Shown here: positions 8,641 to 58,439 of the stretch, one piece after another
Layout: each line of letters begins with the position of its first letter
How positions within the stretch are numbered: position 1 is the stretch's first letter
NCBI GenBank assembly: GCA_028687375.1
Contig: JAQUAG010000010.1
Span: 1 to 58,439, forward strand
Direction: 5' to 3'
Source of the DNA: Arcobacteraceae bacterium
GTDB lineage: Bacteria > Campylobacterota > Campylobacteria > Campylobacterales > Arcobacteraceae
Length of the DNA: 58,439 nucleotides
Translations under genes and position numbers: made by a program
The notes under the pieces: model-generated
The model's database searches: none
Told to the model about the DNA's origin: nothing
Seen by the model: only the letters and a program-made list of their open reading frames with translations

Positions 8641-9024
8641 TTATTTCTCACATCCACATTTACAAGATGTTGTTCCACTATCTAGTAAATCTTTGTAATT
8701 TGTTTTATCCAATTTAATGAAATCGTCATTTGAAAGTTTAAAAAATATCTCATCAATTGTATTAGATTTGTCTGTTGCCTTATACACTTCAATATTATTT
8801 TCCATACAACTACTATAAACACCTTCACCCATATGGTAAAAAATTGTGCTTGTTACACCATATTGTGTAAGGAAACTAGCTATTGCTAAGCCATTTCCTT
8901 TTTCTTCATTTTCTATAACTGTAAAATTCCCTTCTGCTTCATCAAGAAGTGCAAAAAATGGAACATTTCCATAAAGATCAGAAATTGTTGTTGAAGTTTG
9001 TGTTGAAATAGGTATTGCTAACAT
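8641..9024 (-). CDS. NifX/NifB-C-terminal-type FeMo-cofactor-binding domain protein
   Basis: A 127-residue protein of the dinitrogenase iron-molybdenum cofactor biosynthesis family (the NifX/NafY/VnfX/NifB C-terminal fold). Family features are LYGNVPFFALLD near the start, VIENEEKGNGLAIASFL, and the central block YGVTSTIFYHMGEGVYSSCMEN. The tail CKCGCEK is Cys-rich and could bind metal. Such proteins hold NifB-co or FeMo-co during transfer to NifEN or NifDK. It is the first gene of a two-gene operon divergent from nifE. The mRNA leader (9025-9224) carries a switch-like structure, and the ribosome-binding site AAAAAGG lies 7 bases before the ATG. Confidence 0.87.
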   Translation of the reverse strand: MLAIPISTQTSTTISDLYGNVPFFALLDEAEGNFTVIENEEKGNGLAIASFLTQYGVTSTIFYHMGEGVYSSCMENNIEVYKATDKSNTIDEIFFKLSNDDFIKLDKTNYKDLLDSGTTSCKCGCEK

Positions 9025-9224
9025 TTTAAATCCTTTTTAAATGTCCCATAAAAGGTGCCTAAAAAAATCAATATTTTTTTAGGGAACCTTAAAAAGGGAC
9101 CTCTTGTTCTTTGTCTTCTTTTTACGATATAGCAAAGCTACATCTAAAGAAGCAAACCCTAAAGTGAGAAACAAGTTTCTCTTTCTTCGCTAAAATGTCC
9201 CATTTAAAAAAGGACTTCTTATTA
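9025..9224 (-). promoter_or_regulatory. Structured mRNA leader, copy A of a three-member family (candidate riboswitch)
   Basis: In minus-strand sense the elements come in this order. Stem P1 is GAGAAA, loop CTTG, TTTCTC (9181-9166). A conserved TTTAGGGTTTG follows, then P2 CTTCTTT (9152-9146) with AAAGAAG (9121-9115). P2 encloses P3 TGTAGC/GCTATA (9142-9137/9133-9128). Next is a conserved ACAAAGAACA, then GTCCC (9100-9096) pairing with GGGAC (9047-9043). An alternative helix pairs CCTTTTTAA (9097-9089) with TTAAAAAGG (9040-9032), which holds the Shine-Dalgarno bases. The two helices exclude each other. A copy-specific 11-bp hairpin (9058-9083) sits inside the GTCCC/GGGAC loop. Copies B (28291-28419) and C (58300-58439) show compensatory changes in P1, P2 and P3. 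The ligand is unknown. Confidence 0.72.
9197..9215 (-). repeat. Extra GTCC/GGGAC hairpin module at the 5' end of leader A
   Basis: Minus-strand GTCC and GGGAC flank TTTTTTAAAT and are followed by ATTTTA. This repeats the 3' switching module of the leader family just upstream of P1. It lies at the predicted transcript start and is probably a remnant of a tandem copy. Confidence 0.5.
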
Positions 9225-9232
9225 CATTTACT

Positions 9233-9250
9233 ATTCAATAACTATTCCGT
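9233..9250 (-). promoter_or_regulatory. Sigma-54 promoter of the NifX-like/Nfu operon
   Basis: On the minus strand ACGGAATAGTTATTGAATA has the -24 GG (9248-9247) and a -12 GA (9236-9235) separated by 10 bases. GA instead of GC is also seen in front of nifB. The start of transcription would be near 9223, at the beginning of leader A. It is divergent from the nifE promoter at 9270-9285. Confidence 0.6.
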
Positions 9251-9269
9251 ACTGTCAAAATTTTGATTT

Positions 9270-9285
9270 TGGAACAATTATTGCA
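9270..9285 (+). promoter_or_regulatory. Sigma-54 promoter of nifE
   Basis: TGGAACAATTATTGCA carries -24 GG (9271-9272) and -12 GC (9283-9284) with the canonical 10-base spacing. It lies 25-40 bases upstream of the nifE start, so the leader is only about 15 bases. No TGT-N10-ACA NifA site was found in the shared intergenic region. Confidence 0.82.
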
Positions 9286-28284: not shown

Positions 28285-28290
28285 GAATAC

Positions 28291-28419
28291 GGTGAAAGGA
28301 AACTCGTTTCCTTCTTTAGGATTTGCTACTTTAGGCTTGACTTGTTAAGCCGTAAAAAGTAGATAAAGAACAATAGGTCCCTTTTAAAATGGGACATTTT
28401 AAAAGGAGAATATAAAAAG
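28291..28419 (+). promoter_or_regulatory. Structured mRNA leader, copy B of the three-member family (candidate riboswitch)
   Basis: P1 is AAGGAAA (28296-28302), loop CTCG, TTTCCTT (28307-28313). A conserved TTTAGGATTTG follows. P2 is CTACTTT (28326-28332) with AAAGTAG (28356-28362), enclosing P3 GGCTT (28334-28338)/AAGCC (28347-28351) with loop GACTTGTT. Then come ATAAAGAACAATAG and the switch module. GTCCC (28377-28381) can pair with GGGAC (28391-28395). Alternatively CCTTTTAAAA (28380-28389) pairs with TTTTAAAAGG (28397-28406), which contains the Shine-Dalgarno bases. The second helix is 10 bp and perfect. Compared with copy C, P1, P2 and P3 all differ by paired changes. The gene start is 28420. 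Confidence 0.75.
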
Positions 28420-28620
28420 ATGGAAATAGATGAAAAAGAACTAAAAAAAGAGTACGCAGGATACAAAAGAAAAGTTACAGAGATAGCTGGTGAGATTCAC
28501 GATATTGTTGAAGATAGTATCTGGACTGATTATGTGAAATTAGCAGGCTTAAGCGTTAAAATAGAAGAAGCTATGATACCTGTAAATGAAATGAAACAAA
28601 AATACGATTTCCTAAAATAA
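28420..28620 (+). CDS. CCE_0567-type nif-associated small metalloprotein
   Basis: A 66-residue, highly charged, mostly helical protein (MEIDEKELKKEYAGYKRKVT...). It matches the small Rop-like helical hairpin family found in nif clusters beside NifX and often annotated CCE_0567 family metalloprotein. Its role in nitrogen fixation is not established. It is the first gene after leader B and is followed after 19 bases by the BFD-like gene. Confidence 0.78.
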   Translation: MEIDEKELKKEYAGYKRKVTEIAGEIHDIVEDSIWTDYVKLAGLSVKIEEAMIPVNEMKQKYDFLK

Positions 28621-58002: not shown

Positions 58003-58299
58003 TTAGTATTTAAGTCTTACGATTCCGTTTGGTTTAGCAATTTTCATTTGGCATGAAAGTCTAGAATTTGGTGTACAAGTTCCAGAACAAATCTCTTTTA
58101 AAACTTTTACTTCTTTATCTGTTTTAGGAGATAAAAATTCCATACCTTGCTCAACTTCAACTACACAAGTACCACACTCACCATCTCTACAACCAAATGG
58201 AAGTGCTGAACCACTTGCTTCAACGATATCTTGAATTGTACTACCTTCTTTAACATTAATTGCTAAAAAATCATTAATTATTTCTACTCTTGTTGTCAT
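58003..58299 (-). CDS. [2Fe-2S] plant-type ferredoxin, nif-linked
   Basis: A 98-residue soluble ferredoxin with cluster ligands in GCRDGECGTC (C-x5-C-x2-C) and a distal Cys in RLSCQM. The C-terminus INGIVRLKY-like strand (NGIVRLKY) closes the beta-grasp fold. Similar ferredoxins in diazotrophs donate electrons to nitrogenase reductase or protect nitrogenase under oxygen stress. The gene is monocistronic, with leader C upstream and a terminator downstream. Sharing a leader with the NifX-like and CCE_0567-type genes supports a nitrogen-fixation role. AAGGAG lies 11 bases before the ATG. Confidence 0.88.
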   Translation of the reverse strand: MTTRVEIINDFLAINVKEGSTIQDIVEASGSALPFGCRDGECGTCVVEVEQGMEFLSPKTDKEVKVLKEICSGTCTPNSRLSCQMKIAKPNGIVRLKY

Positions 58300-58439
58300 A
58301 TCTTTTTCTCCTTAAAATTTGTCCCAAATTTGAAGGGACCTATTGTTCTTTGTCTTCTTTTTTCGGTTTAACAAGTCAAACCTAAAGAAGCAAACCCTAA
58401 AGAGAGAAACGAGTTTCTCTTACTTCATACCTAAAATTT
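58300..58439 (-). promoter_or_regulatory. Structured mRNA leader, copy C of the three-member family (runs to window edge)
   Basis: In minus-strand sense P1 is AGAGAAA, loop CTCG, TTTCTCT (58420-58403). A conserved TTTAGGGTTTG follows. P2 is CTTCTTT (58390-58384)/AAAGAAG (58360-58354), with P3 GGTTT (58382-58378)/AAACC (58369-58365) inside. ACAAAGAACAATAG is followed by GTCCC (58339-58335) and GGGAC (58325-58321). The alternative helix pairs CCTTCAAATTT (58336-58326) with AAATTTTAAGG (58320-58310), with one mismatch, and holds the ribosome-binding site. The promoter is outside the window. Confidence 0.72.

Follow-up and report, generated by a model that had tools for sequence, protein, structure and literature searches.

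A dispersed, mobile-like 5'-leader RNA family of Arcobacteraceae carrying its own Shine-Dalgarno sequence and a candidate translational switch

Three genes in a stretch of 58,439 nucleotides from an Arcobacteraceae genome (hereafter the window) are preceded by what looks like the same folded RNA leader. A sequence-only reading had taken these leaders for a three-member family set before nif-associated genes, candidate for a new riboswitch class. Are they that, or part of something wider? The three leaders are present, each lies in sense directly 5' of its gene, and the order of parts described is common to all. The joining sequence CTTTAGGnTTTGCTnCTTTAG has 3 matches, against 0.03 expected in shuffles. 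Helices P1, P2 and P3 pair as claimed, and covary over 10 copies of the own genome (95.8% of cells paired, 34 double changes, 0/500 shuffles). The names given to the three target genes hold as well. The features are listed below; the boundaries of the three elements are those of the covariance model R1, built from ten own-genome copies and comprising P1, P2, P3 and P4A.

8641-9024, minus strand: Nitro_FeMo-Co (NifX-type) gene
9029..9192, minus: copy 1, leader of the NifX-type gene (R1 117.7 bits, E 6.8e-23)
9031..9035, minus: Shine-Dalgarno (SD) AAGGA, the 3' end of copy 1; its partner in the P4B state is CCTTTTT (sequence; P4B counts)
9054..9088, minus: accessory 35-nt hairpin GGTTCCCTAAAAAAATATTGATTTTTTTAGGCACC in the P4 loop of copy 1 (sequence)
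9096..9100, minus: P4A 5' strand GTCCC of copy 1, partner GGGAC at 9043-9047 (sequence; structure of alignment A3)
9165..9182, minus: P1 hairpin of copy 1 (covarying in alignment A3)
9184..9282, minus: decayed tandem copy upstream of copy 1 (R1 29.7 bits, E 0.011), its clearest part being a P4 remnant GTCC..GGGAC at 9197-9215
28286..28409, plus: copy 2, leader of the CCE_0567/Rop-like gene (R1 140.6 bits, E 6.7e-28)
28296..28313, plus: P1 of copy 2 (A3)
28314..28325, plus: joining segment CTTTAGGATTTG of copy 2, conserved as CTTTAGNRTTTG across three families
28326..28362, plus: nested P2/P3 of copy 2 (P2 28326-28332/28356-28362; P3 28334-28340/28345-28351)
28377..28395, plus: P4A of copy 2, the SD-free state (GTCCC 28377-28381 with GGGAC 28391-28395)
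28380..28406, plus: P4B of copy 2, the SD-sequestered state (28380-28390 with 28396-28406)
28403..28407, plus: SD AAGGA of the gene at 28420 (sequence)
28420-28620, plus: Rop-like/CCE_0567-type gene
58003-58299, minus: 2Fe-2S ferredoxin gene
58307..58430, minus: copy 3, leader of the ferredoxin gene (R1 140.9 bits, E 5.7e-28), final copy of a tandem array
58309..58313, minus: SD AAGGA of the ferredoxin gene (sequence)

The element is about 125 nt long. Its 5' domain includes, in this order, hairpin P1, the joining segment CUUUAGNRUUUG, the nested P2/P3 and an A-rich tail. The C-N-N-G loop and AAAGAACAAnAGG, both put forward as traits of the whole family, are limited to a subfamily. Further copies of the ferredoxin array reside on the same contig past an N gap (C46:58573-58696 and 58692-58810). 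The array is an exact tandem one, and the assembly gap interrupts it at about 58.44-58.57 kb of C46, just past the window.

The most informative part of the element had been missed. At the 3' end of the Arcobacteraceae copies either of two hairpins may form around the SD, P4A (GUCCC/GGGAC) or P4B (CCUUnnAAAAU/AUUUUnnAAGG), and the two are mutually exclusive because the CC residues are common to both. P4B ends with the SD AAGGA, which P4A leaves free. P4A is paired in 98% of cells in the ten own-genome copies, and in 100% in 44 copies, one U-A swap included; P4B is paired in 93-94% of cells, and has five covarying pairs. Predicted mean energies over the 44 copies are -7.1 kcal/mol for P4A and -6.9 kcal/mol for P4B, and one mismatch found in many copies weakens P4B to about -5 kcal/mol, near P4A. 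The prediction is thus of an expression platform with two exclusive states, conserved and balanced in energy, one of which sequesters the SD as riboswitches may do. Such an arrangement is that of a translational switch, and switching plausibly occurs in cells. In the P4A state GUCCC/GGGAC would form and the SD would be free; in the P4B state the SD would be paired, and translation should be blocked. The conservation of both hairpins suggests switching, and the 5' domain may bias the choice between them depending on some general signal or factor, the element thereby regulating translation. Campylobacter copies lack P4, and the upstream copies of tandem arrays are not located at the SD.

Counting three members fell well short, as the covariance model finds about 29-33 copies in the genome. 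A loose-pattern scan had already revealed additional copies, several in tandem. In the 2.54 Mb genome R1 identified 31 copies at E <= 1e-3 and 33 at E <= 0.04, and the 29 best-placed ones, with tandem copies merged, correspond to 25 loci. Among Arcobacteraceae, R1 matches were found in 83/104 genomes and 16/20 genera, from 0 to 31 copies per genome, and those listed amount to about 580 by addition. A second model, R2, built from 44 copies, detected a shorter core in Campylobacter-family genomes and Sulfurospirillum; about 320 other Campylobacterota genomes gave no match. The core pattern, run against 85,000 species genomes, was identified in Arcobacter, Halarcobacter, Aliarcobacter, Sulfurospirillum cavolei and Campylobacter jejuni 414. 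Pattern matches in Streptococcaceae, Lachnospiraceae, Thalassovita and Mesohalobacter were discarded, the rest of the fold being absent, or the E value only 0.014. A match on one contig of a Desulfosporosinus MAG differs hardly at all from Arcobacteraceae copies, and probably reflects misbinning or contamination. A MAG titled Helicobacter pylori PMSS1 (CAMCYD01...) is an Arcobacteraceae genome, and its elements match those of G049, the genome nearest to that of the window. In IMG/VR the core resides in about thirty provirus loci, Campylobacter prophages being among the carriers. No match was obtained by blastn in the PLSDB plasmids, and spread by plasmids was rejected on this ground. The view that no known riboswitch consensus is present finds support in Rfam 15, which has no match at the gathering threshold in the whole window and in 20 loci hosting other copies; at relaxed E-value only chance-level matches emerged. 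The elements form a large, real and apparently unnamed RNA family of Arcobacteraceae, Campylobacter prophages and Sulfurospirillum, missing from Rfam 15.

The fold is supported by compensatory changes throughout the family. In 44 copies 98.9% of pair cells are formed, 238 cells carry double changes (0/500 shuffles), and 17/26 pairs changed on both sides. The covariation score is 0.572, compared to 0.164 in shuffled alignments, and far lower values were obtained in slid controls. In core copies from Campylobacter and Sulfurospirillum 96.3% of cells are paired, with 292 double changes, and the unpaired CUUUAGNRUUUG and UAAAAG segments are shared with Arcobacteraceae copies. The 44-copy and the Campylobacter/Sulfurospirillum alignments were fitted to the model, and lean towards structure; the slid controls and a MAFFT alignment of the first ten copies are not biased in the same way. 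Changes are found at orthologous sites, too. At the transaldolase site 13 pairs carry double changes over P1, P2 and P3, the differing sequences are all paired, and P4B has been rewritten as CCUUUUAAUA/UAUUAAAAGG; in the glnB/K (PII) group 12 pairs carry double changes. Either the fold has been maintained at these sites, or new copies have replaced old ones; both options argue against passive debris. Covariation is present and no Rfam family is matched, two points on which the proposal of a selected cis-acting RNA could have failed; the proposal stands.

Accessory modules are inserted in some copies. A hairpin of the GGTTCCCTAAAAAAATATTGATTTTTTTAGGCACC type is found inside the P4 loop of unrelated copies of different genomes (9054-9088 in the window; L192; L280); the last one, a lepA copy from a sister genome, carries in its P4 loop the same module as copy 1. 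A second module, TCTTCATAGCGTAGTCTTGTGGCGAAYGAAGTGAAG, resides at the P2/P3 base or in the P4 loop (L057 1501-1663; the glnK leader of G044; L187), and its sole match in the own genome (G000), as in G044, lies within an element. In copies preceding different genes (L055, L063, L280) the joining segment is interrupted between UUU and GCU by a third insert (TTTCTCnCAGAGAGT...AACAnAAGGCT).

All Arcobacteraceae copies that were examined lie in sense, and have the gene's SD as their final part. Placement was assessed with a pattern devoid of P4 and SD. An SD plus start codon was found in sense 46-96 nt away (mostly 50-57) in 31/33 copies, compared to 1/33 in the antisense control; the remaining 2/33 copies are cut or short, and yet run into an ATG. 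These are conserved, covarying folds lying in sense in 5' leaders, as riboswitches do. About 13/33 copies from Campylobacter and proviruses precede a start codon in sense, versus 0 in antisense; the others are intergenic, some arranged as divergent pairs around GGGGTACCCC. Matches away from genes, which would weaken the notion of a leader, are therefore met in Campylobacter, where some copies have no gene downstream, while Arcobacteraceae copies lie upstream of genes. At four Campylobacter provirus loci two outward-facing cores share a GGGGTACCCC centre, as in REPIN or BIME mosaics. In Sulfurospirillum and some Campylobacter-family genomes the core adjoins the 5' end of 16S (in sense) and the 3' end of 23S (in antisense), as seen at four loci, and such cores flank several rRNA operons per genome.

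The distribution among closely related genomes is uneven. In the own genome an element lies after the stop codon of amt and before the SD of glnK. At this site three genomes of the same genus (G049, G047, G046) have 13-16 nt in place of the element, and two (G044, G048) host diverged copies. Searches with fused flanks revealed clean empty sites in same-genus genomes at thrB, der, nifU, luxS, pdxH and a zinc-ribbon gene; most loci have such sites in relatives of the genus. G049 has the der, nifU, lepA and zinc-ribbon copies in common with the own genome, and also has a panD relative. Decay is evident in the G048 trpB copy, which retains part of P4 only, and in the G044 lepA copy, with eroded P1/P3. 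Tandem copies are found at fdx, nifT and DUF2018, and remnants lie upstream of the 9 kb copy and of others. Presence and absence at orthologous sites is the pattern expected of MITE-type elements, and empty sites, tandem, decayed and partial copies are the behaviour of a mobile repeat. A mobile repeat had been named as the finding that would undo the leader hypothesis; as far as empty sites and tandem arrays go, it is in part what we see.

How the elements could have moved is less evident. Terminal inverted repeats are absent, as by inspection the ends GCGAAGnAAG.. and ..TTTTAAAAGGA are not complementary. By inspection, AAGGA flanks the element both upstream and downstream at thrB, luxS and pdxH, but not elsewhere. 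No Y1 transposase was found in nine genomes, copy-rich ones included, and no reverse transcriptase in five of these and in others. Mobilization of the REP/RAYT type, and retro-mobilization by a retroelement or retron, were accordingly rejected, as several copy-rich genomes lack the enzyme. The elements are not MITEs with inverted ends, and an AAGGA target duplication fits only some sites. They do not resemble integron attC sites, given that their ends lack complementarity and that they precede housekeeping genes. Nor are tandem arrays just cooperative riboswitches, upstream copies having no SD, and some being remnants. Since no mobilizing enzyme, inverted repeat or consistent target duplication was found, the evidence for gain by transposition is the presence or absence of copies. 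Precise loss between the AAGGA-like repeats flanking some copies could explain part of the same pattern.

The account that we favour, by a modest measure, is that of a dispersed family of mobile-like 5'-leader RNAs of about 125 nt, repeatedly gained and lost, each bringing its own SD and a candidate translational switch. Presence and absence data suggest that the elements would have spread as mobile repeats. A bolder version may be entertained tentatively, as a possibility that we rate as somewhat improbable: a mobile riboswitch, i.e. a self-spreading module landing just upstream of start codons and supplying a new SD, would place unrelated genes of one bacterial order and its prophages under one common translational signal, and its gain and loss would rewire the controlled set between species.

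It is unlikely that the family is a purely selfish structured repeat of the MITE or BIME sort, void of function for the host, in which the SD would only make insertions between stop and start codons tolerable, and pairing would serve mobility as single-stranded DNA or RNA. Site presence and absence, tandem and decaying copies fit such an origin, as do the divergent pairs and mosaics of Campylobacter, the prophage copies, and the occurrence of both orientations beside rRNA genes. Against it stand the strict placement in sense at the SD seen in Arcobacteraceae, the double changes found at orthologous sites and the balance of the P4A and P4B hairpins, and neither inverted repeats, nor Y1 transposase, nor reverse transcriptase were found in the genomes searched.

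The nature of the target genes bears on the other proposals. In the own genome the genes related to nif and nitrogen encode the ferredoxin, the Rop-like/CCE_0567 protein, three NifX-type proteins, NifT, NifW, NifU and PII (glnK), and make up about nine of some 25 loci. Enrichment is marked on C46, the contig of the window, with 5 loci against 0.7 expected (P = 5e-4). The other targets include LepA, Der, PdxH, LuxS, ThrB, TrpB, PurD, PanD and DUF2018. In other genomes, where genes were partly named from sequence only, elements precede IspH, ThrC, GuaA, UreC, HypA, HypB, transaldolase, HisH, prs, an RND pump and thioredoxin. The element is not nif-specific, because the same leader precedes lepA, der, luxS, thrB, trpB, purD, panD, transaldolase and ispH. 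A nif-specific class sensing a nitrogenase-related ligand, as initially imagined, is not what emerges, since most copies in other genomes, like the remaining loci of the own genome, precede unrelated genes; a nif-specific regulon was rejected on the same ground. A gene encoding a NifA-like GAF-AAA-HTH regulator (L032 1103-2668, minus) lies directly downstream of nifT, which is preceded by two tandem copies; this locus and the main nif cluster are on separate contigs.

A broader hypothesis, that the family is a genuine class of riboswitches, which bind a ligand signalling a general metabolic state and were duplicated into the leaders of many biosynthetic and nitrogen metabolism genes with nif as one branch, strikes us as doubtful. 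Highly conserved unpaired segments joined to an SD-sequestering platform, tandem copies as in some riboswitches, nif enrichment in the own genome, and targets recurring across genera (glnB/K, nifU, transaldolase, ispH, thrB/thrC) speak for it. Yet no coherent ligand-linked regulon was found in the own or other genomes, where downstream genes are unrelated (lepA, der, luxS, prs, dnaJ-like and phage genes), sites turn over extensively between species of one genus, and Campylobacter copies lack P4, and lie beside rRNA genes or have no downstream gene.

It is quite improbable that the element is a site at which a trans-acting factor (an RNA-binding protein, RNase III, an antiterminator or the ribosome) binds or processes the RNA, so that mRNA stability or initiation would be set constitutively, with no switch driven by a ligand. 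The several hairpins, the placement between operon genes, the cores adjoining the 16S 5' and 23S 3' ends and the copies in phage operons would suit such a site. Against it, the copies linked to 23S run antisense to the rRNA, no partner is known, and the conservation of both P4A and P4B suggests switching.

ERIC (or IRU) sequences of enterobacteria measure 127 bp, and have terminal inverted repeats, TA target duplications and one long stem (PMC2229807). They are similar in size, and likewise dispersed, intergenic and highly structured; ERICs are transcribed, and their orientation affects neighbouring mRNA (PMC2229807). In contrast to them, the element lacks inverted termini, has a multi-helix fold and conserved unpaired segments, is strictly in sense in Arcobacteraceae, and includes the SD. 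The pneumococcal BOX, RUP and SPRITE have been described as parasitic repeats, and mobilization by IS has been proposed for RUP and BOX; they too are small interspersed sequences with RNA structure, variably present at orthologous sites and expected to affect co-transcribed genes, but that account reports none whose 3' end is the following gene's SD, with two mutually exclusive hairpins around it (PMC3049150). REPs and BIMEs are associated with RAYT (Y1) transposases, and their palindromic units, divergent pairs and mosaics recall the Campylobacter copies (PMC2817692). Unlike for these, no Y1 transposase was found in several copy-rich genomes, the own one included, and REPs have no RNA expression platform.

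Translational riboswitches feature a conserved 5' domain and alternative hairpins which free or hide the SD, and may occur as tandem copies. The element shares all these traits, and differs in the lack of a coherent regulon, the high turnover of sites, and the prophage and rRNA-adjacent copies. In the earlier literature only the screen of structured intergenic RNAs by Stav et al. 2019, which includes Arcobacter sp. L, came close, as judged from its main text (PMC6429828). The same bacterial family was screened, and comparison is with that main text, which shows no structure. Overlap with one of its motifs is possible, because most novel Arcobacter-restricted motifs were left unnamed, as far as the main text tells (PMC6429828).

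Dispersed structured repeats are well known in bacteria; in the literature consulted none was found that consistently includes the SD of the downstream gene, with sense-only placement and two covarying SD hairpins family-wide. If the switch works, the family would be a natural example of a regulatory RNA that spreads as a module and changes the control of genes from one sister species to another. If it does not, we face a repeat shaped by evolution to do no harm where an mRNA is most sensitive. In both cases, the site-by-site presence and absence makes the effect of the element directly testable against natural empty sites.
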